Source: Gemmatimonadota bacterium (GTDB taxonomy: Bacteria; Gemmatimonadota; Gemmatimonadetes; Palauibacterales; Palauibacteraceae). Taken from it: a stretch of 50,826 bases of DNA. This document shows positions 39,582 to 50,209 of the stretch, piece after piece. Position numbers and translations under genes: made by a program. The stretch's first letter is position 1. Every line of letters begins with the position of its first letter. The notes under the pieces were generated by a model. The model saw only the letters and a program-made list of their open reading frames with translations. It was not told where the DNA came from and did not search any database. The DNA lies in NCBI GenBank assembly GCA_022825725.1, contig JAJDWE010000025.1:1-50826 (forward strand), in the 5' to 3' direction.

Positions 39582-39815
39582 GTGGCTCGACGGGTCAACA
39601 TCATGATGGACGAGGACTCGTGGCGTGTGCTGCAAGGGCTCCCGCGCGGTACCCGCAGTCGCGCCGTCAACGAAGCCATCCGCGAGTGGTCGGGCGCTTC
39701 CAGGAAGCGGGACGCCTCCGCCCGGATGGACGCATTGCGAGCGCGGTTGCCCGCAGTCGAGACCGATCGAATCGTCCGGTGGATCCGTGAGGAGCGGGAG
39801 CAACGGCGGCCGTGA
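39582..39815 (+). CDS. Antitoxin of a VapBC-type module (ribbon-helix-helix-like)
   Basis: GTG 39582 is preferred because GGAGGAG (39569-39575) lies six bases upstream. The earlier ATG 39552 abuts the operator repeat and has no well-placed site; using it would add ten residues. The 77-residue product begins ARRVNIMMDEDSWRVLQGLPRGTRSRAVNEAIREW (seen in overlapping parts), a strand followed by helices as in CopG-like antitoxins. A charged helical tail follows (DRIVRWIREEREQRRP). The stop overlaps the toxin start by four bases. It should bind the PIN toxin and repress through the inverted repeat at 39531-39551. Confidence 0.8.
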   Translation: MARRVNIMMDEDSWRVLQGLPRGTRSRAVNEAIREWSGASRKRDASARMDALRARLPAVETDRIVRWIREEREQRRP

Positions 39816-40234
39816 TCGTCACGCCGGACGCGTCGGTTCTTCTCAAATGGGTTCTTCCGGGCGACGACGAGCAGGACACCGACGCGGCGCTCGCGCTGCG
39901 TGACGAGGCGGTGGCGGGAACCCTCGACCTGGTCGTTCCTCAACTCTGGATGTACGAGGTGGGAAACACACTGGCGAGGCGGTTCCCCGATGACGCCGAC
40001 GCGCTCCTGGCATCCCTGGCCGACTTCGGCCTGGCGGAAGCGCGGCTCGACTCAAACTGGAGAAGGCGCGCCGTGTCTCTGGCCGTAACGTACGGAGTCG
40101 CGTTCTACGACGCGGCGTACCACGCCGTGGCGCTCGGCCTTGGGGGCGTGTTCGTGACGGCGGACGAGCGATATGTGCGTCGCGCGTCGAGCGCCGGGGG
40201 CATCTCCTCGCTACGGCTCTGGCAAACCCGCTGA
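39812..40234 (+). CDS. vapC: PIN-domain ribonuclease toxin, VapC family
   Basis: The 140-residue protein starts at GTG 39812, overlapping its antitoxin. PIN residues appear in order: Asp6 in VTPDASVLLKWVLP, Glu in LWMYEVGNTLARR, Asp in FYDAAYHAVALGL and Asp in FVTADERYVRRA. These form the metal site for RNA cleavage, and nothing appears missing. It is followed, 22 bp on, by the convergent end of the Rieske oxygenase gene. It shares little sequence with the other two VapC-type toxins in the window, so these are separate acquisitions. Confidence 0.9.
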   Translation: MIVTPDASVLLKWVLPGDDEQDTDAALALRDEAVAGTLDLVVPQLWMYEVGNTLARRFPDDADALLASLADFGLAEARLDSNWRRRAVSLAVTYGVAFYDAAYHAVALGLGGVFVTADERYVRRASSAGGISSLRLWQTR

Positions 40235-40256
40235 GGGATACGCGAGTTCTTCGAAC

Positions 40257-41336
40257 CTACTCCGACGTGGGGGGAAAGAACTGTCGGTACCAGTCCCGCA
40301 GACGCATCACCGGGCCGTCGTCGCGGCAGAGCATCGGGGGGGCCGTGAAGCCTTTTTCTTCCCAGATGCGGACATCGTTGCGCCACTGGGAGACCCAGCC
40401 TCCGACCGCACCGCGGACCAGAAGCCGCGGGACGCTGCGCTCGGCGAACCAGTGAAAGACGACCTGCTGGTCGAGTGGTGAGATCGGCAGATAGGTCTGT
40501 ACGATCTCCACGACGCCCACCCTCGGCAACTCGATCGTCAGGTTCATGATGCTGCCGACTCCCGTGAACATGACTCGGGTCTTTGTCCGGGTACTTTCCA
40601 TGCGGCGGCCGCCGACGTTGAACACGGTCTCGACGAGGAGCGGCATGCGGTAGCTCCCCCGGGCAGCGTCGAAGTCCAGGCGCGACGTGTATTCGATTGC
40701 CGTGCGGGGAATCGGGAATCGCGTCCAGGGCACGGTCAGTCGGTTGTGGAGGTGTCCGAAGTGCGCAGAGTCGACCGCATTCTCGATAGGCTCGACGATG
40801 TGCATTCGGCTGCGGCCGGCGTCGTAATGTCCGCGAAAGACGAAGGTCCCGTCATCGACTCCCGGGATGCGGGGGACCGGGTACGGAACCTCTTCGCCCG
40901 CCTGCTGCGGAGCTCCGCCACTCCGGTGATACATGAAGATCTGCCCGTGCACCTCCTGTACGGGGAAACTCTCGGTCGCTACGCGGGTGGGCACGGTGTC
41001 GCTGTAGGGCACGTGGGCCGCTCGTCCGTCGCCCGTGAATTGCCAGCCGTGAAAAGGACACTCGATGCGATCCCTGCAGACGCGGCCGCCCGCGAGGTTC
41101 GCGCCCAGGTGAGGGCAGAACGCCGACATCGCGAATACTTCGTCCCCGGCCTCGCTGCGCCAGACGACCAGCGCGCGGCCCAGGCACTCCAGGTAGCGCA
41201 CTTCCCCCCGCCGCAGCGACTTCGAGCGGAGCAGCCGGTACCAGCCATCGGGATAGGGATGGGGATAGTTGGCAAGACGCAGATCGTCGGAGTATTGCGG
41301 CTCCCGGCGCTTCGAGCGGCGAGTCAGGAAGCTCAT
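40257..41336 (-). CDS. Rieske non-heme iron oxygenase (KshA / cholesterol 7-desaturase-like)
   Basis: The 359-residue protein has an N-terminal Rieske [2Fe-2S] domain with C74-P-H76 and C93-P-F-H96, and a catalytic domain with N186-x2-D189-x2-H192-x4-H197 (ENAVDSAHFGHLH) for mononuclear iron. The start YPDGWYRLLRSKSLRRGEVRYL resembles the DAF-36/Neverland and KshA branch, which oxidise steroids. Such enzymes use O2 and electrons from a separate reductase, which is not encoded nearby. It lies 19 bp downstream of a heme-binding toroid protein on the same strand, so the two probably act together on a lipid-like substrate; this is inference from context. Confidence 0.88.
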   Translation of the reverse strand: MSFLTRRSKRREPQYSDDLRLANYPHPYPDGWYRLLRSKSLRRGEVRYLECLGRALVVWRSEAGDEVFAMSAFCPHLGANLAGGRVCRDRIECPFHGWQFTGDGRAAHVPYSDTVPTRVATESFPVQEVHGQIFMYHRSGGAPQQAGEEVPYPVPRIPGVDDGTFVFRGHYDAGRSRMHIVEPIENAVDSAHFGHLHNRLTVPWTRFPIPRTAIEYTSRLDFDAARGSYRMPLLVETVFNVGGRRMESTRTKTRVMFTGVGSIMNLTIELPRVGVVEIVQTYLPISPLDQQVVFHWFAERSVPRLLVRGAVGGWVSQWRNDVRIWEEKGFTAPPMLCRDDGPVMRLRDWYRQFFPPTSE

Positions 41337-41355
41337 TGGCCGCCGACGCGGTTCC

Positions 41356-42492
41356 CTAGCGTTCCTCGGACGAGGGACTGGCCAGGGAACTCGTCACCGC
41401 GAGGGCCATCACCGGGTAGAGCGTCCCGGTATACGTGATGAAGTGCCACGTCTCCGTATTGAGGGACTTCGTCCACCAGCGGCCCGATTCTCTCTGGTTC
41501 CGCCTGAGCCACTCCACGCCTCGCTGCACGGCCGGGTCCGTCGCCGGCACCCCCGCGGACGACAGCACGACAACCGCCAGACCGGTCTGGTGGCCATCGC
41601 TCGCGGGATCGCCGAAGTCCGCCTCGGCTCGCAGGCGTTCCGCGCGGTTGCCCCGCCCCCATTCCTCGGGCTGAGCGAAAGAGCGAATCGACCATCCCCC
41701 GTCCGGGCGCTGACGGTCCAGGATCATCCTGACGAAGTCCCGCTTCCGGTCGGCGCTGATCACGCCCGGGAGATGTCGGTCCGCCCAGAGCAGTGCCACC
41801 CGGGCGTAGTCATGAGGAGGAGGGACCCGCTGCAGATACTCTCGCAGACTGGCCACCTGCCCCTGCAACTCGGGAGAGGCCGCCTGCTCGAGCCATCCCG
41901 GAGCCAGGCCCACACCCATGGCCGCAACGGTCGCGACCTGAAACGCGTCGGACTCGAACGGCGGCCACGTGTCCGGCGAGTGCCAGGCCCCGTCGTCGCG
42001 CTGAAGGCGAAACATGAGCTGAAGAGCCTGCTCGGTTTCGGGAGACAGCCGCTGCTCCACGTACGCATCCCAGGATGCGAGAGACGCGGCAAGGTGCACG
42101 ACTTCCGCGGGGTCCACTCCCTCCTGGAGCTCTTCGGGGTCCTTGGCGAGCCTGTCCTGGAGACGTTCTTCGAGAAAGGCCCGGAAGGCCGCATCGGGCT
42201 GACCCAGGCTCCCGGCGAGTTGCGGACGAAGGATCCCGTACCACCCCGTGGTGTGACACGAGACGCAACCGCGGTTGTTTACCCAGGCCTTGGCTCCACC
42301 CTCCAGATAGGCGACCGCCCGCTCGATGGACAGATTCTCCGCAACGGGTTCATCCCCCGACGCCGGCGGGATGGCGATCTCTCCGAAGTGATACTGGTGG
42401 AGGCGGTGGTCGGGCTCCTCCTGCGCGTGAAGCCCGGAGCCGAGAAGCGAGATTCCGACCGACAGTCCGATGGCGGCGTGCATGAGTTTCAT
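41356..42492 (-). CDS. Exported protein with one c-type heme motif and prenyltransferase/squalene-cyclase-like repeats
   Basis: ATG 42492 is chosen because it opens on a signal peptide (MKLMHAAIGLSVGISLLGSGLHAQ); the longer frame adds an unrelated leader. The 378-residue product has C76-V-S-C79-H80, a single heme c attachment site. It then has alpha/alpha-toroid repeats of the prenyltransferase/squalene-oxidase type: LQRDDGAWHSPDTWPPFESD, DRQRPDGGWSIRSF, NQRESGRWWTKSLNTETWHF. Only a few repeats are present, and the DxDD motif of squalene-hopene cyclases is absent, so cyclase activity is unlikely. A periplasmic redox protein that binds a lipid could pass electrons to, or work with, the Rieske oxygenase 19 bp downstream. 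Confidence 0.75.
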   Translation of the reverse strand: MKLMHAAIGLSVGISLLGSGLHAQEEPDHRLHQYHFGEIAIPPASGDEPVAENLSIERAVAYLEGGAKAWVNNRGCVSCHTTGWYGILRPQLAGSLGQPDAAFRAFLEERLQDRLAKDPEELQEGVDPAEVVHLAASLASWDAYVEQRLSPETEQALQLMFRLQRDDGAWHSPDTWPPFESDAFQVATVAAMGVGLAPGWLEQAASPELQGQVASLREYLQRVPPPHDYARVALLWADRHLPGVISADRKRDFVRMILDRQRPDGGWSIRSFAQPEEWGRGNRAERLRAEADFGDPASDGHQTGLAVVVLSSAGVPATDPAVQRGVEWLRRNQRESGRWWTKSLNTETWHFITYTGTLYPVMALAVTSSLASPSSEER

Positions 42493-42663
42493 GGCCGAGC
42501 GCAGTCCCAGGAGGTTCCCGTGTTGGGGCTGCATCCATCGTAAACGCCGGTTCGCCGCCATGTAAAGGCACGCGCGAGACCGGAGGCCGGCCGCGTGACG
42601 TCCCTCATCGCTTCGGCGCCATCGTCCCCGTCTCCCGGCGCTCGAACCGTTCCCGGAACGTGG

Positions 42664-43095
42664 CTAGCGGGGCGCCTCGATGCCGATCTCGGGTGCCGCG
42701 GCGGCGAAGTGGCGGACGTTCCAGGTGATGATCGTCGAGGCGCGGGCCTTCAGCGCGCATGCCGCGATGAGCATGTCGTACGTCTGCCCGCCGATCACTC
42801 TTCTTCGCTGCGCTCTGCGCAGCGTGCGCCAGGTCTCGGCCGCCGTAAGGTGTATGGTGGGAGTTTCGCCCCAGTTCGCCTCGAGCAGTGCGATGGCGTC
42901 CCCGGATCGCAGTCGATGAGGTCCTGGTAGCCGGGTGAGGACCGCATACGTCTCCGCCAGCGAATGAGCGGCAAGCACAAGCTCTTCGCCGGTGCCCTCG
43001 CGTCGCGCGAGTTCGGCACGGGTTCTCGCGTGGTGTTCGTGCCAGGAGCAGACGGTCGCGACCAAGGCGCTTGTGTCGCAGAGGTAACGGGTCAA
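42664..43095 (-). CDS. vapC: PIN-domain ribonuclease toxin, VapC family
   Basis: The 143-residue protein has a PIN domain: Asp7 in YLCDTSALVATV, Glu in AHSLAETYAVLTRLP, Asp in GGQTYDMLIAACAL, and a final ITWNVRHF where Asn replaces the frequent Asp. That replacement is common in this subgroup (WNxxHF). Translation starts at TTG 43095, overlapping the antitoxin stop by four bases (TTGA); no better start is in frame near the conserved strand. The weak start may hold toxin below antitoxin level. The toxin partners an AbrB-type antitoxin rather than a ribbon-helix-helix one. Confidence 0.88.
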   Translation of the reverse strand: MTRYLCDTSALVATVCSWHEHHARTRAELARREGTGEELVLAAHSLAETYAVLTRLPGPHRLRSGDAIALLEANWGETPTIHLTAAETWRTLRRAQRRRVIGGQTYDMLIAACALKARASTIITWNVRHFAAAAPEIGIEAPR

Positions 43096-43337
43096 GAGCG
43101 GAGGCCGGCCGTCGTCTCCTCGACCTCCGCCGCCGTCAACACCGGACGGCCCTCGCGCGGCACCGCGACCACGGCAGCGCCACGCCGTTCGAGTGAGACG
43201 TCCAGCGGTACCGGCTCAATCTCGACGCGGCCGTCCCGAACCCGGAACCGGACTCGGGTTCCGGGACGCAGCCGGCTCGCTTCCCGAACCGCCTTGGGCA
43301 CAACCAGGCGGCCGGCCTTGTCGATGGTAGTTTCCAT
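43092..43337 (-). CDS. AbrB/MazE-type (SpoVT-AbrB) antitoxin
   Basis: ATG 43337 is chosen because the family begins METTIDKAGRLVVPKAVREA; an ATG four codons earlier (43349) is equally possible, and neither has a clear ribosome site. The 81-residue chain has the swapped-hairpin DNA-binding domain (LRPGTRVRFRVRDGRVEIEP) and a C-terminal toxin-binding tail (RPVLTAAEVEETTAGLRS). AbrB-type antitoxins often pair with PIN toxins of the WNxxHF subgroup, as here. The stop overlaps the toxin TTG. It probably represses the operon from the AT-rich stretch just upstream of 43349. Confidence 0.87.
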   Translation of the reverse strand: METTIDKAGRLVVPKAVREASRLRPGTRVRFRVRDGRVEIEPVPLDVSLERRGAAVVAVPREGRPVLTAAEVEETTAGLRS

Positions 43338-43478
43338 GGTAATAATCATGCCACGTCAGGTGCCATCGATCAAGATGCGCACTTGGACTCGAGGACGGAT
43401 AGCGCAGTCGGGCAACCCTGATGTTAGTGGAAAAGGTCCTATCGGTGGCACGCATCCAACTCCACGCGAGGGACTGCA

Positions 43479-44816
43479 ATGAACGCCAGCCAGCCCGCCC
43501 GGATCCGCTCGTTGCCGCTCGTCGTCGCCCTGGTCGCGGCGCCCGCTCTCCAGGCTCAGGAAGTGATCGAAATCCCGGCTCGGGACCGTCGCATCGACGT
43601 CGAGTTTGAGGAGGTCTACCGCGTCGGTGTCCTCGAGGGCGAGGAGTGGGAGATGTTCGCCCGAGTCGCCAAGGTGGCGTTCGACGCGGCGGGCAATCTG
43701 TACGTCTTCGACGACACTCCCGGCTCAAGGCGTTCCGGGGAGGTGCGCGTCGTGGTGTTCGACGCTTCGGGACGCTTCCTGCGCGAGTTCGGTTCCCCGG
43801 GCGGTGGGCCCGGCGAGTTCAACCGCCCGATCGACTTCGCGGTGCTCCGGGACGGAACGGTGGTAGTGAGCGACGCCGGCCACGGCGGCTATCAGCTGTT
43901 TGACAGCGCCGGGAGCTTCCAGCGCATGGTCCGAGCCGGCGGCGAGCCCGGCGACAGGCCGAAGTTGGGGCAGAGCCTTCGGGCCGATCCTCGCGGCGAC
44001 GCCGTCTTCGCTTTCGCCGGGGATCGGCTCGGCGTCATGACCCACAGTCTGGTGGAAGGACTCCGCAGCCTCATGGGGGGAGGTTCAGCGGTCCAGCCCG
44101 TTTCGCGTCCCATCGTGCGGATTGGACTCGACGGCGAGGCCGTTCACGCGGACACGGTGGTCACGGGCTGGCTGCCCCTGGGAGGCGATCCGGATGACCG
44201 GGTACCGGATGGTGCCCCCGCCCAGCTTCGGGACATGCTGGGCGGCATGACGGGGCCCACGGTCTTCGAGCCCCCGCTCCTCGTGGGTGTCCTCCCGGAT
44301 GGCGGCGTCGTTCATTCGGATTCTTCCGCGTACGCACTGAAGGTGACGCGGCCCGGTGCGCGGCAGGTCTCGCGAATCATCCGGCGGCCGTTTGTGCCCG
44401 AGCCCGTGACGCCGGCGATCGAGAGGGAGTACCGACGACGCGCCGCCAACGCTCGCGAGGGACTCGGTACAGGGCTCAGGATGCTGGAGTTGCGCCAGCG
44501 AGGGGGCGGAAACAGACCGTCGGCGACGACCAACGTCGAGCTTGAAACGACGTACTACCACGAACTCTCGGTGCTCCGCGGTCTCCGTACTACATGGAAT
44601 AGCCGCATCTGGGTGCAACGCCGGGGAGACGAGCCGCAAAGCGACGGACCCATCGATGTCCTGACGGCGATAGGGGAGTACGTGGGCACCTACGCGACCG
44701 GCGCGACGGCGTTGCCCGACGCCTTCGGTCCGGACGGGCTGGCGGCGTTTATCGAGTTCGACGAATTCGACGTGGCCCGCGTGGTCGTGCGGAGGCTGCC
44801 GTCCGAGGTTCGGTGA
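43479..44816 (+). CDS. Secreted 6-bladed beta-propeller protein
   Basis: The 445-residue product has a Sec signal ([17 protein letters not shown]) and then propeller blades: [46 protein letters not shown] (quoted in part), [30 protein letters not shown] (in part), and later [25 protein letters not shown]. The phrase FGxxGxGPGEFxxP is typical of 6-bladed propeller proteins widespread in Gemmatimonadota and Bacteroidota. GAGGGA lies before ATG 43479. The function is unknown; no catalytic residues are apparent. The gene stands alone, with the tandem paralogues beginning about 90 bp downstream. Confidence 0.78.
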
Positions 44817-44827
44817 CATGTCGACTT

Positions 44828-44883
44828 GTCCGGCTGGGCCCGCGAGTCCGCATGACATATACGTCAACCCGATGAACCGATGC
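44828..44883. repeat. Left copy of a ~56-bp imperfect direct repeat flanking the tandem paralogues
   Basis: This stretch and 46416-46471 align over about 56 bases with roughly three quarters identity. They share the cores GCATGA and TACGTCAACCCGA and end in GATGC. The copies bracket the pair of paralogous genes. This one lies just upstream of the first paralogue's ribosome site (GGAGG at 44897-44901). Confidence 0.6.
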
Positions 44884-44908
44884 AGGTCAACCAGATGGAG
44901 GCGCCTAC

Positions 44909-45607
44909 GTGCAAGCGGAAATGCAGCAGGTGAAACGGACGATCCGTTGGCTGCAGGGGTACGCCGTCCTGGCCAGCGTTGCACTCGTCGTGCTGTTCGT
45001 CAGGAATGGGGCGGCGGCGGAGGATGTCCTGCGGGCGCGGGGGCTGATCATCGAGGACGAGGTCGGGCGCGAGAGAATCCTCATCGGTGCCCCGGTCCCC
45101 GAGGCCGCAAACCGCGTTCGGACCGATGAAGCTCGCGTGCGGGAGGTCTGGGCACCCGGGTTTCCCGAGGCGTACATGGACTACTACCAGGACTACAGCC
45201 ACGACACCAACGGGATGCTGATCCTCAGCGAGGACGGATTCGACCGACTCATCGTCGGGGATCCCACGCCCGATCCGAACATCGGCAGGCGCATCGCGCC
45301 GGCCACGGGCATGGTGATCAACGACGACCAGGGGTTCGAGCGGACCGGGTATGGCGCATTGGCCGTGAATGGGGGCTATAACGTCGGCTTGGGCCTCGAC
45401 ACGGATCAGATCGCAGAGGGGCTCAGCCTGGTCCTGCAGGATGGTGGCCCACGCGGCATTCTGGTCGGCACGCCGGCGGACGGGATCTTTCTTGGCACTG
45501 CGCCCGCCGGACACGCCTGGACGGGCCTCGCGGAGGAATTTCAGGGGCTGTTGGCCCGGCGAGATGGCGAGATCGTGCACCAACTGAATCTGGCGGCCGG
45601 CAACTGA
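44909..45607 (+). CDS. Single-helix anchored protein of unknown family (tandem copy 1)
   Basis: GTG 44909 follows GGAGG at seven bases and gives 232 residues. A short polar head is followed by one membrane helix (AVLASVALVVLFV) and then a domain outside the cytoplasm that I do not recognise: LRARGLIIEDEVGRERILIG, YMDYYQDYSHDTNGMLILSE, DGFDRLIVGDPTPDPNIGRR, GMVINDDQGFERTGYG, and a C-terminal LAEEFQGLLARRDGEIVHQL. Repeated pairs of short strands with D/E-G turns hint at a small beta-rich fold. The next gene is an ungapped paralogue of identical length. Probably an anchored periplasmic protein; the role is unknown. Confidence 0.75.
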   Translation: MQAEMQQVKRTIRWLQGYAVLASVALVVLFVRNGAAAEDVLRARGLIIEDEVGRERILIGAPVPEAANRVRTDEARVREVWAPGFPEAYMDYYQDYSHDTNGMLILSEDGFDRLIVGDPTPDPNIGRRIAPATGMVINDDQGFERTGYGALAVNGGYNVGLGLDTDQIAEGLSLVLQDGGPRGILVGTPADGIFLGTAPAGHAWTGLAEEFQGLLARRDGEIVHQLNLAAGN

Positions 45608-45704
45608 CGCGGGCGGCGGCGATCGCTACACGCTGCCCCCGAGCCTCCCGCACCGGCACGACCCGTCCGTGTCGCCAGGATAGCGATTCTCAAAGGAGGA
45701 TGCC

Positions 45705-46403
45705 GTGAGTACGAGTGCCGAACGATTGAACCGTACCGTTCGTTGGCTACAGGTCTACGCCGCATTGCTGACCATCGCAGTGGCCGTGCTGTTCGTCAGG
45801 AGCGGGACGGCCACGGACGGTGTGCTCAGAGCACGGGGGCTGATCATCGAGGATGAGGTCGGGCGCGAGAGAATTCTGATCGGCGCCCCGGTCCCCGAGG
45901 CCGCCAACCGCGTACGGACTAATGAGGCTCGCGTGCGGGAGGTCTGGGCACCCCGGTTTCCCGAGGCCTACATGGATTACTACCAGGACTACAGCCACGA
46001 CACCAACGGGATGCTGATCCTCAGCGAGGACGGATTCGATCGCCTCGCCGTCGGGGATCCCACACCCGATCCGAACATCGGCAGGCGCATCGCGCCGAGT
46101 ACGGGCATGGTGATCAACGACACCGAAGGATTCGAGCGGATGGGTTACGGCGTGAAGCCTATGGACGGTCGCTATCGCGTCAGTCTGGGCCTCGATACGG
46201 ATCGCATCGAAGAGGGTCTCATATTGATGCTGGACGATGATGGCCCACGCGGTGTTCTGGTGGGCACTGCGGGGGACAGGATCTTTCTTGGCAGCGCGCC
46301 CGCGGGACACGGTTGGACGGGCCTTGCGGAGGAATTCCAAGGACTCCTGGTCCGGCAAGATGGCGAGACCGTGTACCAGATGAACCTGGCGGCCGGCAAC
46401 TGA
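45705..46403 (+). CDS. Single-helix anchored protein of unknown family (tandem copy 2)
   Basis: GTG 45705 has a strong AAAGGAGG site. The 232-residue protein aligns without gaps to the preceding one at roughly 77% identity by eye. The match is very uneven. About residues 40-130 are nearly identical even at DNA level, while the N-terminal head and helix (AALLTIAVAVLFV) and the region around residues 140-190 differ strongly. Its own ribosome site and 97-bp spacer suggest separate translation. The function is unknown. The paired copies may form a heteromer, or one may be a diversified duplicate. Confidence 0.75.
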   Translation: MSTSAERLNRTVRWLQVYAALLTIAVAVLFVRSGTATDGVLRARGLIIEDEVGRERILIGAPVPEAANRVRTNEARVREVWAPRFPEAYMDYYQDYSHDTNGMLILSEDGFDRLAVGDPTPDPNIGRRIAPSTGMVINDTEGFERMGYGVKPMDGRYRVSLGLDTDRIEEGLILMLDDDGPRGVLVGTAGDRIFLGSAPAGHGWTGLAEEFQGLLVRQDGETVYQMNLAAGN

Positions 46404-46415
46404 CGCGGTCTGACT

Positions 46416-46471
46416 GACCGGCCAGCCCGTGAGCCTGCATGATGTTGTACGTCAACCCGAAACACGGATGC
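46416..46471. repeat. Right copy of the ~56-bp imperfect direct repeat
   Basis: It matches 44828-44883 (shared cores GCATGA and TACGTCAACCCGA). Here it begins 13 bases after the stop of the second paralogue and runs up to the RelB-like gene start (46477), so it forms the leader of that gene. Such placement suggests the repeat marks a recombination boundary or carries a shared promoter element. Confidence 0.6.
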
Positions 46472-46476
46472 CGCAC

Positions 46477-46737
46477 ATGCCGAACCAGCTCGTTCAGGCC
46501 CGCATCGACCCAGCCGTGAAGGAGGAGGCGGACACCGTTCTGGCGGCCGTGGGCCTGACCGTCTCCGGTGCCTTGCGCCTCCTTCTGATCAAGGTCGCCC
46601 AGGAGAAAGCGCTGCCGTTCGCACCGCTGGTTCCCAATGCCGATACCATTGAAGCGATGAGAGAGGCCGGCCGGGGCGACCTCCCGCAGTCCGCCAGCGT
46701 AGAGGACCTCTTCGACGATCTGCGCGCGGACGATTGA
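46477..46737 (+). CDS. Orphan RelB/DinJ-family antitoxin
   Basis: ATG 46477 begins MPNQLVQARIDPAVKEEADTV, the typical DinJ/RelB start, and gives 86 residues. GLTVSGALRLLLIKVAQEKALPF (in parts) is the ribbon-helix-helix core, and PNADTIEAMREAGRGDLPQSASVEDLFDDL (in parts) is the toxin-binding tail. In-frame starts at 46429 and 46468 lie in the flanking repeat and are less likely. DinJ/RelB genes are normally followed by a YafQ/RelE toxin. Here the next gene is on the other strand and no toxin is present, so it is an orphan, perhaps protecting against a toxin elsewhere. Confidence 0.82.
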   Translation: MPNQLVQARIDPAVKEEADTVLAAVGLTVSGALRLLLIKVAQEKALPFAPLVPNADTIEAMREAGRGDLPQSASVEDLFDDLRADD

Positions 46738-46756
46738 GCGGGGCAGGCGCGTCGGC

Positions 46757-47047
46757 TTACTGGTCGTCGGCCCTTTCGAGCTCCGCGAACAGCTCTTCCG
46801 CGCTGGCGAATCGAGCCGTTCCCTGCCTCATCATTTCCTCGCACTCGGCCATGGCTCTGCGGGTCTCAGCATTCGGCACCTTGAGGCCGGCAGATCGCGC
46901 CGAGTCCCTCATCGCTTCGGCGTCATCCTCCCGCTGCTGCGAGACAAGATCTGCCTCAGTGGTGCCGTCCAGCACCGCGTGATCGACCCTCCCCTCGGGC
47001 AGGCTTTCGGGATCTTCCGGATCAATCGTGATGCGAGTTGTGCTCAT
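46757..47047 (-). CDS. Mosaic antitoxin-like protein (HTH-antitoxin N-terminus joined to a RelB-type tail)
   Basis: ATG 47047 has GGAGGAG about nine bases upstream; an earlier ATG (47086) lacks one. The 96-residue product opens MSTTRITIDPEDPESLPEGR and continues EADLVSQQREDDAEAMRDSA, which resembles the segment preceding the helix-turn-helix in some XRE antitoxins. Instead of that HTH it runs into VPNAETRRAMAECEEMMRQG and FASAEELFAELE, a RelB/DinJ-type tail. It has no toxin neighbour and is convergent with the RelB-like gene. It looks like a fusion of two antitoxin pieces; whether it works is unclear. Confidence 0.6.
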   Translation of the reverse strand: MSTTRITIDPEDPESLPEGRVDHAVLDGTTEADLVSQQREDDAEAMRDSARSAGLKVPNAETRRAMAECEEMMRQGTARFASAEELFAELERADDQ

Positions 47048-47296
47048 GTTTCCGATCTCCTCCGCGCTCGGTGTCTTCGTCCGCATCTACTGGATCTGGT
47101 TCATGATACACCAAGCCGGTCGGTGGTGTCCCGTCGGCGGGAGCCCACCTGGACGCCAGCCCGTCCCTTCGCCCTGCTAGCGGGCTGCAAGTTTTTGCTT
47201 GACAGGCGACGCTCCACCGTCGAGCCCTTCAGGTGCGGGGATGTCACGGTGGCCGATGGGTACCAGGTGGACGATCGCGGAAGGGGAGGACCGACC

Positions 47297-47659
47297 ATGC
47301 CCATGCACGACCCGCCGCATCCGGGCGGCATCGTGAGGCGGCAGTGCCTCGAACCGTTGGGCCTGACCGTGACGCGGGCGGCGGAGGGCATGGGCGTTAC
47401 CCGGCAGGCGCTCTCGGAGTTGTTGAACGGGCATACCGGAGTGTCGGTCGAGATGGCGATCCGGCTTTCGAAGGCCTTCGGCTCGACGCCTGAGACGTGG
47501 CTGGGGATGCAGATGGCGTACGATCTCGGGCAGGCGCGCGACCGCGCCGGGGAGATGACGGTCGAACGCTTTGCGGCGAACGTTCCGTGGCTGAAAGGCT
47601 CGGAGCGCAGCTTCGACTTCTGGGTGAACGAGGAGGATGCTGTCTACGATAGCCTATAG
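47297..47659 (+). CDS. higA: Orphan HigA-type antitoxin (XRE) with a foreign C-terminal tail
   Basis: ATG 47297 gives 120 residues. HDPPHPGGIVRRQCLEPLGL, VTRAAEGMGVTRQALSELLNG and MAIRLSKAFGSTPETWLGMQ are the standard HigA helix-turn-helix antitoxin. HigA should end near residue 95; here about 25 residues more end in SFDFWVNEEDAVYDSL, which matches the tail of antitoxins that precede PemK/MazF toxins (FDFWDNEEDAxYD). The first codons of a MazF gene overlap this end. The HigB toxin normally found upstream is absent. The chimera shows recombination between two toxin-antitoxin loci. DNA binding is probably retained. Confidence 0.78.
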   Translation: MPMHDPPHPGGIVRRQCLEPLGLTVTRAAEGMGVTRQALSELLNGHTGVSVEMAIRLSKAFGSTPETWLGMQMAYDLGQARDRAGEMTVERFAANVPWLKGSERSFDFWVNEEDAVYDSL

Positions 47660-47723
47660 GCGGGGCGACATCGTTCTCGTCTCCTTCCCCTTCACCGATC
47701 TCACTTCAACCAAGAGACGTCCC
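47637..47723 (+). pseudogene. Truncated PemK/MazF toxin fragment
   Basis: From ATG 47637, overlapping the end of the HigA-like gene, the frame reads YRRGDIVLVSFPFTDLTSTK then RRP, the conserved first strands of PemK/MazF endoribonucleases. After 29 codons the match stops; the usual remainder of about 80 residues is gone. The frame continues without a stop through about 110 unrelated bases into the next HigA gene. The catalytic region is missing, so it is inactive. Confidence 0.8.
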
Positions 47724-47837
47724 GAGGGGACGCAGATGACGGGGCTGACGTGTCTCTCAGACCCGTACCTTGAGCTCCTCGATGTCCATTGCGGCCGGCG
47801 GAAGCATCGAGCGACCTACAAACCCGGAGGTAGGATC

Positions 47838-48179
47838 ATGGACAGCGCAGGAGACGAACGCGTGGATCCTATGCTCAACCCTCCGCACCTGGGCGAGCTG
47901 ATCCGCGAGAGCATGGACGAGGTCGGCTGGACCGTGACCGAAACGGCGGTGCGCCTGGAGTGCGAGCGGGGGACCCTATCACGGTTACTGAACGGCGAGG
48001 CGGGCCTCTCGGCGAACATGGCGCTCGCGTTGGAGGCTCTCGGCTGGGGCGAGGCCGATCACTGGATGCGAGTGCAGGCGAGCTACGAGCTTGCGCAGGC
48101 ACGACGGGCACGCGGATGGGTGGAGGATCTTGGCGCCCGCGATCCACGCCGCAGTAGCGACAACGGCGTGACGATCTGA
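47838..48179 (+). CDS. higA: Second orphan HigA-type antitoxin (XRE)
   Basis: ATG 47838 has GGAGG (47826-47830) seven bases upstream, so it is the likely start even though the frame is open back to the MazF fragment. The 113 residues show LNPPHLGELIRESMDEVGWT, VTETAVRLECERGTLSRLLN and ANMALALEALGWGEADHWMR, again a HigA HTH domain, with a charged tail. Only about half its residues match the first HigA, so it is a different lineage, not a fresh duplicate. No HigB is adjacent. It may be an orphan regulator or anti-addiction factor. Confidence 0.8.
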   Translation: MDSAGDERVDPMLNPPHLGELIRESMDEVGWTVTETAVRLECERGTLSRLLNGEAGLSANMALALEALGWGEADHWMRVQASYELAQARRARGWVEDLGARDPRRSSDNGVTI

Positions 48180-48194
48180 CGGGCGGATGCAATC

Positions 48195-48662
48195 CTGACG
48201 GACAAGCTCCTCGACACGGACCCGGACATCCTGGGCGGGACTCCGGTGTTATCGGGCACGAGAGTTCCCGTGCGGATACTGATGGAGCATCTCAAGGCGG
48301 GCGACCGACTCGAGGATTTCCTCGACAACTACCCCACGGTTTCGCGGGATCAGGCGGTCGAACTGCTCAAGCATGCTGCGACGATGCTGGTGAGCGGCTA
48401 TTCTGCCCACATGCGAGAAATCACCTGCAAAGAGGCGAAGAACCGGTTCGGCCAGCTGCTTCGGTCCGCCCAGCGGGGGCCCGTGCGGATCACCCGGAAC
48501 GGCACGCCGGTGGGCGTGATGCTGTCGGTGGAGCAGTTCGAAGGACTGCTCGGAACTGCCTGGGACCGGTTAGCGGCCGCGATGGACGCCATGCGCCGGG
48601 AGGCAGCCGACAACGACCTGACGCCAGCGGCGCTGGAGTCCCTGCTCTCCGATGAAGGCTGA
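48195..48662 (+). CDS. DUF433 domain fused in frame to a Phd/YefM antitoxin
   Basis: The frame runs from LTDKLLDTDPDILGGTPVLS through GTRVPVRILMEHLKAGDRLE and YPTVSRDQAVELLKHAATML, a complete DUF433 domain. It continues without a stop into MREITCKEAKNRFGQLLRSA and GPVRITRNGTPVGVMLSVEQ, a Phd/YefM antitoxin. No ATG, GTG or TTG precedes the conserved DUF433 start: only CTG 48195 or ATC 48192, or GTG 48246 which would cut the domain. The Phd part could also start at ATG 48411 (83 residues) but lacks a ribosome site. Both domains are antitoxin components normally encoded separately; DUF433 usually pairs with a DUF5615/PIN-type toxin. A broken VapC follows. Confidence 0.7.
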   Translation: MTDKLLDTDPDILGGTPVLSGTRVPVRILMEHLKAGDRLEDFLDNYPTVSRDQAVELLKHAATMLVSGYSAHMREITCKEAKNRFGQLLRSAQRGPVRITRNGTPVGVMLSVEQFEGLLGTAWDRLAAAMDAMRREAADNDLTPAALESLLSDEG

Positions 48663-48789
48663 CAGGGTCGTACTCGACACCAACGTTCTGATCAGCCCCG
48701 CCCGCAACCGACCTCTCATAAGGGGCCCTCGCCGTCTTCGAGGCGTCTGGCGTCCTCTTCTTTCGGTTAGGCTCCGTTGCGGACGATAG
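48652..48789 (+). pseudogene. Broken PIN-domain (VapC) toxin
   Basis: ATG 48652 overlaps the end of the Phd antitoxin, as intact phd-vapC pairs do, and reads MKADRVVLDTNVLISPA, the first PIN strand with its Asp. The match then fails. In the +1 frame ALAVFEASGVLFF resembles the next PIN helix and strand, so a frameshift and deletion are likely. The in-frame product stops after 45 codons. The remaining acidic residues are gone, so the toxin is dead while its antitoxin remains. Confidence 0.65.
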
Positions 48790-48997
48790 CCGCGTCGGCG
48801 GCTTCGGCGACGGTACGGTAGCCGTCGGTTTGCCGATGCGCGGCCTCGTCCTCGGGGTTCGTGTCCGAAGGCACGAGATACCAGCGGTCGGCCCGGTCGG
48901 ATTCCCCGTCCATGAAGTGTCCGCGCACGAGGCGGTACCCGGCCAGCTCGGCCCGGAACTTTTGGGCGCGGATGATGACGTTCGGATCAAACCTCAT
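48767..48997 (-). CDS. Small protein of unknown function, third gene of the RelE/HTH operon
   Basis: The 76-residue product (MRFDPNVIIRAQKFRAELAG, VRGHFMDGESDRADRWYLVP, DTNPEDEAAHRQTDGYRTVA) is hydrophilic with no signal or membrane segment. Its ATG overlaps the stop of the HTH antitoxin by four bases (ATGA), so it is translated with the toxin-antitoxin pair. I do not recognise a family. Position suggests a third component or passenger of the module. The codon use and GC pattern look like real coding sequence. Confidence 0.55.
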   Translation of the reverse strand: MRFDPNVIIRAQKFRAELAGYRLVRGHFMDGESDRADRWYLVPSDTNPEDEAAHRQTDGYRTVAEAADAAIVRNGA

Positions 48998-49278
48998 GGC
49001 GATGGCACCAGTGCATGCCTCACCGCGTTGGGATCGTGCTTGATGATGCGCAGAAGCGCCACCGCCGGGCCGCTGACACGCCGTCTCCCCTGCTCCCACT
49101 TTCGGTAGCCGGACAGGCTCATTCCCATCAGGGCCGCCATTTGGATCTGCGTCAGCTTCGCCTCCATCCGAACTTCGCGGGGGGAGATCGGGGCGTGAAC
49201 GATGGCGGGACCCTCCCCCTTGGCATGGTCCAAGGCCTCGTTCAAGGACTGGATCAGGTCTTCTCCGAACGTACTCAT
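48994..49278 (-). CDS. XRE-type HTH antitoxin of a RelE/HigB-like module
   Basis: The 94-residue protein has an N-terminal arm (MSTFGEDLIQSLNEALDHAK) and then the sequence ISPREVRMEAKLTQIQMAAL and MGMSLSGYRKWEQGRRRVSG, a helix-turn-helix of the type that partners HigB/RelE toxins. RVSGPAVALLRIIKHDPNAV is the family ending. Its ATG overlaps the toxin stop by four bases, toxin first, the HigBA order. It should neutralise the toxin and repress the operon. The third small gene overlaps its stop. Confidence 0.88.
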   Translation of the reverse strand: MSTFGEDLIQSLNEALDHAKGEGPAIVHAPISPREVRMEAKLTQIQMAALMGMSLSGYRKWEQGRRRVSGPAVALLRIIKHDPNAVRHALVPSP

Positions 49279-49616
49279 TCCCTCCCCCGCTTTCCTTGAA
49301 GTTTGATGGCGGCTACGAGCGCAGCCACTGCTCGGCGCTCGCCAGGGTTCAGATCGGTCTTGCCGGACTTCGAGTAGGCGAGAAGCGCGTAGATTGGCAT
49401 TTCCTCGCCCCCGAAGAAATAGATTATGCGGACACCACCCCGCTTACCGCGCCCGGAGGCTCGGAATCGCATCTTTCGGACCCCGCCGGTGCCGGGAATC
49501 TCGGACCCCGCCAAGGGGTACTCGGCCAAGTAGTCGATCAATTCGCGTCTCTCGTCCTCGTTGAACAGCTTGTCGGCCTGACGGGAGAAGGTTGGAGTCT
49601 CGGCAACGGTCTGCAT
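49275..49616 (-). CDS. RelE/HigB-family toxin
   Basis: ATG 49616 gives 113 residues: TPTFSRQADKLFNEDERREL, IDYLAEYPLAGSEIPGTGGV, RKMRFRASGRGKRGGVRIIY and FGGEEMPIYALLAYSKSGKT. That is the RelE/ParE-superfamily toxin that precedes an HTH antitoxin, with the basic strand (KMRFRASGRGKRGG) typical of ribosome-dependent mRNA interferases. The length and motifs are complete. It is divergent from the EndoIII-like gene, sharing a 56-bp promoter region that contains CGGTAAC twice. It appears to be the only fully intact module in the 46.4-49.6 kb patchwork. Confidence 0.88.
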   Translation of the reverse strand: MQTVAETPTFSRQADKLFNEDERRELIDYLAEYPLAGSEIPGTGGVRKMRFRASGRGKRGGVRIIYFFGGEEMPIYALLAYSKSGKTDLNPGERRAVAALVAAIKLQGKRGRE

Positions 49617-49672
49617 GGGGTCACGGTAACCCAGTGGGGCACACACGGCAATCCCGCGAGGCTCGGTAACAC

Positions 49673-50209
49673 ATGCGGACCGAACCGGTCGAGGCCGCGT
49701 TCCTCGGACCACCGGCTGAGATGGCACGATTGCTTCCGGCGGCCCTCCGGCACATCGCGGACAGGTACGGCGGGGACGCCTCGCGTATCTGGGCCGGCGG
49801 GAGCAGCGGCGCTTCCGTGGCCAGACGGTTCCTGGCCTTCGATGGTGTTGGCCCGAAGATCGCCAACATGGCCGTGAACATCCTGATTCGCGATTTCCAC
49901 ATCGGACTCGCGACGCCCATGCCCGACATTGCGGTCGACACCCACGTCCTGCGGGTGTTCGAGCGGCTGGGACTCCTCGACAGGCTCGAACACAGCCAGC
50001 TACGCTCGACCAGGGACAAGCAGGGACTCCGGCTCCAGCTGCGCGCTCGCGAGCTCAGCCCGGAGTGGCCGGGGGAACTCGACTGGCCGGCACGGCACCT
50101 CGGGACGAAGTGGTGTCACGCCGGGCGGGCGCCGGAGTGTGGGCGGTGCTACATGGGGTCGGTGTGTCCGAGGGTTGGGGTTGCTTCGAGGTCAACGGCG
50201 GACTTATAA
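49673..50209 (+). CDS. Short HhH-GPD base-excision repair protein (endonuclease III-like) with Fe-S motif
   Basis: The 178-residue protein has the helix-hairpin-helix FDGVGPKIANMAVNILIRD with the Lys typical of glycosylase/lyases. Next comes DIAVDTHVLRVFERLGLL with the catalytic Asp, and finally KWCHAGRAPECGRCYMGSVC, a four-Cys cluster motif. EndoIII spacing is CX6CX2CX5C; here it is CX7CX2CX5C. The N-terminus is 40-60 residues shorter than usual and begins at ATG 49673, so the gene may be trimmed. It probably removes damaged bases from DNA. It stands next to toxin-antitoxin genes and a mobile-element end, in an accessory setting. Confidence 0.75.
   Translation: MRTEPVEAAFLGPPAEMARLLPAALRHIADRYGGDASRIWAGGSSGASVARRFLAFDGVGPKIANMAVNILIRDFHIGLATPMPDIAVDTHVLRVFERLGLLDRLEHSQLRSTRDKQGLRLQLRARELSPEWPGELDWPARHLGTKWCHAGRAPECGRCYMGSVCPRVGVASRSTADL

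Follow-up and report, generated by a model that had tools for sequence, protein, structure and literature searches.

The tandem genes and their surroundings

The window, as we term the whole stretch of 50,826 nucleotides analysed here, is contig 68 of a metagenome-assembled Gemmatimonadota genome (3.49 Mb in 84 contigs) from the genus Candidatus Palauibacter, a sponge-symbiont group. Candidatus Palauibacter rhopaloidicola belongs to the same genus, and the DNA of one sibling genome used below, G008, is identical to the record JAPPGH010000004.1. Two adjacent homologous genes, A (44909-45607) and B (45705-46403), lie on the forward strand of the window 97 bp apart. Each begins with a GTG start codon preceded by a Shine-Dalgarno-like GGAGG and encodes a protein of 232 residues; the two tandem reading frames align without gaps, as had been noticed from the sequence beforehand, at 77-78% amino acid identity. 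The spacer between them (45608-45704, forward strand) includes the ribosome-binding site of B, and measures 97 bp against about 13-16 bp in the corresponding pairs of G008 and G010.

Upstream of A, on the same strand, is a gene for a six-bladed beta-propeller/NHL protein (43479-44816; PF17170, PF01436). A protein 37% identical to it is encoded next to the single-copy A/B-type gene of the sibling genome G009 (L015:5671-6894), on the opposite side of that gene. Downstream of B, on the forward strand, lies a relB/dinJ-type antitoxin gene (46468-46737; TIGR02384, E=8e-18; PF04221, E=4e-15), with no relE seen beside it. The region from 39812 to 49727 is rich in toxin-antitoxin genes, with PIN genes at 39812 and 42664 (reverse strand), an AbrB-like gene at 43092 (reverse strand), the relB gene at 46468, helix-turn-helix genes near 47300 and 47850, a Phd/YefM gene at 48387 and a further pair at 48994-49727 (reverse strand); the corresponding place in G008 is occupied instead by BrnT/CopG-type and HigA-like genes. 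On the reverse strand of the window, a Rieske-type gene (40257-41336) adjoins a gene for a squalene-hopene-cyclase-like repeat protein (41356-42561), which carries the motif CVSCHTTGW with a haem-type CxxCH signature.

Predicted structure and distribution of the family

Searches with A and B returned chance-level matches only in Pfam, NCBIfam, PHROGs and PADLOC, a profile search matched nothing in the PDB by sequence, and an Rfam search returned nothing; the preliminary description of the two proteins as belonging to no recognized family holds in all the protein libraries searched. A defence function was considered on account of a PADLOC match to GajB, but this was weak (E=0.008 over 57 residues) and we take it as chance. 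Both proteins have a single strongly hydrophobic stretch near residues 15-37 (mean Kyte-Doolittle value of 1.9 over 19 residues). Structure prediction with AlphaFold from six close sequences reached a pLDDT of only 35, and a usable model of B was obtained after remote homologues had been added (31 sequences; pLDDT 83.7, pTM 0.68). It predicts a helix at residues 3-33, a hairpin at 45-60, two short helices within 74-93, and a run of hairpins up to residue 227.

The best Foldseek matches of this model are the single-layer sheets of OspA, and they are weak (E=0.012, TM 0.37). Borrelia OspA is likewise built from runs of beta-hairpins, but at about 10% identity and this TM score we regard the likeness as a resemblance only; OspA is moreover a lipoprotein, and neither A nor B contains a cysteine. 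A class-wide set of short Gemmatimonadota hairpin proteins (L055-L062, L067-L084) shares with A and B, at about 25-36% identity, the N-terminal helix and the pattern LxVxDxxGRxRxxLGAP ... GxxIxDxxGxERxGxG. These short proteins nevertheless have little or nothing of an insert of about 60 residues (NRVRTDEARVREVW...YMxYYQDYxH...NGMLILSEDGFDR), which shows the highest conservation within the A/B family and forms the core of the two proteins.

Within the genus the gene is present in five of 17 genomes, with two copies in G000, tandem pairs in G008 and G010, and one copy each in G009 and G001. The first copy of the tandem pair carries a +1 frameshift both in G008 (CCCC for CCC; L013:4921-5620) and in G010 (GGGG for GGG; L014:4763-5462), at different sites. 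The homopolymer tracts concerned are short, and decay or an assembly error is a likelier cause of these frameshifts than phase variation. A phylum-wide sample yielded a second, distant lineage with many homologues (family label f6, genus label g23; records titled Longimicrobiales or Gemmatimonadetes), including broken or fragmentary neighbouring copies at L034:6001-8476 and L035:6001-6992, one of them with an internal deletion. Duplication and decay of genes of this type recur, and the copy-number variation that the preliminary description proposed to look for among relatives is found, in the form of patchy presence combined with repeated tandem duplication.

The gene of G001 is 87.4% identical in DNA to that of a Longimicrobiales-titled genome of another order (L030/L040), at an AHCY identity of 76.7%. 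Their similarity covers about 720 bp, starting shortly ahead of the ribosome-binding site and ending shortly past the stop codon, and the flanks are unrelated. B itself is 85.9% identical to the gene of G264 (AHCY 76.4%), as against 73.0% to that of G001 in its own genus (AHCY 93.0%). With AHCY as the one reference gene, these values suggest that single genes pass from one order to another without shared flanks. No A/B homologues were found in either viral contigs or plasmids.

From its topology in the model, the protein might sit in the inner membrane with the beta-hairpin domain outside the cytoplasm, a placement that we offer with low confidence, and it might there take part in recognition or adhesion, where allelic variants would be useful. 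Such an envelope role is a guess prompted by the topology together with the patchy presence, the transfer and the mosaic structure of the gene. Going further, it is conceivable, if rather doubtful, that A and B define a new family of envelope proteins with a membrane anchor and hairpin repeats, and that Gemmatimonadota lineages, of which several come from sponges, trade its single genes and reshuffle them by duplication and conversion, much like a repertoire for recognition or immunity directed at a host sponge, phages or neighbours.

Conflicting segment histories

Divergence between A and B is uneven along their length, with pS values of 0.58, 0.22, 0.41 and 0.35 and pN values of 0.29, 0.03, 0.20 and 0.08 for codons 1-43, 44-132, 133-190 and 191-232, respectively. 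The preliminary description had noted this unevenness correctly, but it overstated the likeness of the core as near-identity down to silent positions, since the DNA of the core is 92.5% identical yet still shows 13-14 silent differences. A comparison of synonymous divergence along the pair, which the same description had proposed, gives a marginal result when made on A and B alone (Fisher p=0.014 for the chosen core, permutation p=0.053 after correction for the scan), and a strong one once relatives are added. With a pS of about 0.22 accumulated in the core since the event, the conversion can hardly be called ongoing, and a pN/pS of about 0.5 in the variable segments does not bear out the idea of diversifying surfaces. 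The best reading of these segments is as parts of an older divergent copy that were either left unconverted or imported.

Trees of the separate segments disagree with one another. Among seven Palauibacter sequences, codons 41-131 place A with B (AU 0.999) and reject both orthology trees (AU 0.001), and codons 132-180 place A with the first gene copy of the sibling genomes and B with the second (AU 0.985), rejecting the A+B grouping (AU 0.0096). In a larger set of homologues, codons 44-131, which correspond to 45038-45301 in A and 45834-46097 in B, again have A and B as sisters, with A plus the first copy rejected (AU 0.002). Here the A+B grouping is rejected for codons 132-180 (AU 0.036) and for codons 181-232 (AU 0.029); for codons 1-43 the AU test does not separate it from the best tree. 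Codons 132-180 of A (45302-45448) are of the first-copy (alpha) type common to the Palauibacter genomes G008, G009 and G010. Most of the deep nodes in these trees have weak support.

The tree segments were picked after inspection of the data; the PHI test, which needs no preset breakpoints, detected recombination among 17 full-length copies (p=0.002) and among the Palauibacter copies (p=0.001). Sites at which A and B share a state found in none of the sibling copies abound in codons 32-130 and do not occur in codons 131-181, nine orthology-type sites fall within codons 132-174 of A, and the two classes of sites are separated along the gene (permutation p=2e-4). A tract that is closer to its neighbour within the genome than to orthologues is thereby found beside tracts of the opposite kind, with AU tests speaking in both directions, in a comparison made across sibling species with one genome for each. 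The preliminary proposal of gene conversion in the core is supported by these conflicting trees and by PHI, rather than by silent identity alone.

The direction of the exchange is suggested by the outside homologues. Mean DNA identity to all of them, segment by segment, is 64, 83, 72 and 71% for A, and 79, 82, 79 and 73% for B. B is near the family average over its full length and probably donated the core; A departs from all homologues solely in codons 1-43 and 132-180, its core and, roughly, its C-terminus being normal. A conversion of the core from B to A is most likely because A is divergent in these two stretches only, and on the simplest view B-like sequence took the place of the core in an old divergent copy. 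The core of A, about codons 44-131, would have been replaced through homologous recombination between the adjacent copies, presumably by a RecA-type route; codons 181-232 are closest to a gene from another order, and codons 132-180 would represent an older segment of first-copy type that A either kept or acquired.

The second alternative in that last step leads to a different reading of the whole gene, in which the odd segments of A (codons 1-43 and 132-232) were imported horizontally, the core is alike simply because the tandem duplication is recent, and no conversion between A and B took place. Gene-sized transfer between orders is supported for the family, and the segments of A do have different relatives: the C-terminus groups with a gene of the distant lineage at 90% bootstrap, and codons 132-180 group with the first copy of Palauibacter. 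Furthermore, PHI stays significant when A is left out (p=0.026 and 0.005), and recombination is for this reason family-wide, so that the odd segments of A may be imports rather than relics. Import in place of conversion would, however, require two or three separate events in one copy that all left the core untouched, and the tandem pair is present also in G008 and G010, which suggests that it is older than this reading supposes. We therefore consider it a possible explanation, although clearly a less probable one than conversion of the core of A by a B-like sequence.

The flanking repeat and the overall account

The pair is flanked by two copies of a repeat, at 44820-44883 before A and at 46408-46471 after B, both on the forward strand. 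The 56-bp repeat reported earlier is real and slightly longer than had been thought, but it does not exist in ungapped form: the 56-mers match at 30 of 56 positions, and a few single-base gaps are needed to align the longer stretches at 49 of 62 columns. The score of this alignment is 39; about 2000 random pairs reached no more than 37, and the first repeat copy scored 26 at best against the rest of the window. The second copy ends at the relB ATG (46468), and the same sequence stands directly before relB in the sibling genomes G005, G007 and G009 (about 85-87% identity over leader and start at L089, L090 and L091), where relB lies elsewhere in the genome and does not adjoin A/B-type genes. 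Its conservation and position suggest that this leader contains the promoter or operator of relB; a sigma-70 scan detected neither a consensus promoter nor a terminator. The first copy, which differs from the second at about 20% of columns, is a diverged relB-type leader, with the relB leader of G009 as its best match. Control of gene A by RelB through this copy was considered but dropped, as this copy no longer has the GTTG half-site of GTTG-N5-CAAC.

The repeat is absent beside the other A/B homologues of the genus, and a search of the genus with the first copy as DNA gave chance-level matches only, apart from the second copy. The repeat is a duplicated antitoxin leader in a toxin-antitoxin-rich region, and not the end of a cassette, because three sibling genomes carry it ahead of relB and it is not found next to A/B homologues elsewhere. 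The suggestion that A and B form a cassette bracketed by the repeat, which the preliminary description had itself tied to the occurrence of the repeat beside homologues elsewhere, is not sustained. Nevertheless, the pair could have been inserted next to relB as a unit, with the repeat as the trace of this event, for instance of a single-crossover integration at a shared leader: a relB-type leader stands on each side of the pair, the place of the pair differs from that in G008, G009 and G010, and relB occurs elsewhere without A/B genes alongside. Against this, the two leaders differ at about 20% of columns, the first, nearer to the relB leader of G009 than to its own partner, looks like an older separate leader, and the repeat is found at no homologue elsewhere. 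The unit shared between distant genomes is a single gene, from ribosome-binding site to stop codon, and the genes inspected between about 41 and 49 kb included no integrase, transposase or other part of a mobile element. Insertion as a unit is on these grounds improbable, and the repeat would consist of the relB leader and an older diverged copy now ahead of A, with no part in the exchange.

Least probable is an account without any recombination, in which strong purifying selection keeps the core alike and its silent sites are slow by chance or through codon bias, for although conservation within the family peaks in this core in every lineage and the silent heterogeneity between A and B is by itself marginal, selection on the protein leaves the topology unchanged between segments, and the trees and PHI do not fit a single tree. 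We consider it probable, taking the parts together, that the tandem paralogues A and B belong to a family of membrane-anchored envelope proteins that recombines and is exchanged horizontally, that A is a mosaic whose core has been overwritten by B-like sequence, and that the repeat derived from the relB leader was not involved.

The case is a real and fairly ordinary instance of recombination between tandem paralogues, by a known mechanism, in a family of proteins to which none of the searched libraries gives a name. Partial conversion of tandem genes is known in bacteria, and it is seen here in a mostly uncultured phylum. The gene appears to cross between orders of Gemmatimonadota alone, and it has been duplicated and lost again and again, behaviour that identifies it as an accessory trait. 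Tracing the repeat to the relB leader also does away with a clue that pointed wrongly to a mobile cassette. Among known systems, RelB/DinJ modules touch the pair through their leader, which is the repeat, and through the relB gene directly downstream of B; A and B themselves match no toxin or antitoxin in the libraries searched. A precedent for the mechanism is offered by PE_PGRS17 and PE_PGRS18 of Mycobacterium tuberculosis, where gene conversion gave two tandem paralogues a common block of substitutions (PMC1762029). The organisms differ and the proteins are unrelated, and that description draws on many strains, whereas ours compares sibling species and concerns an older tract that has since diverged.
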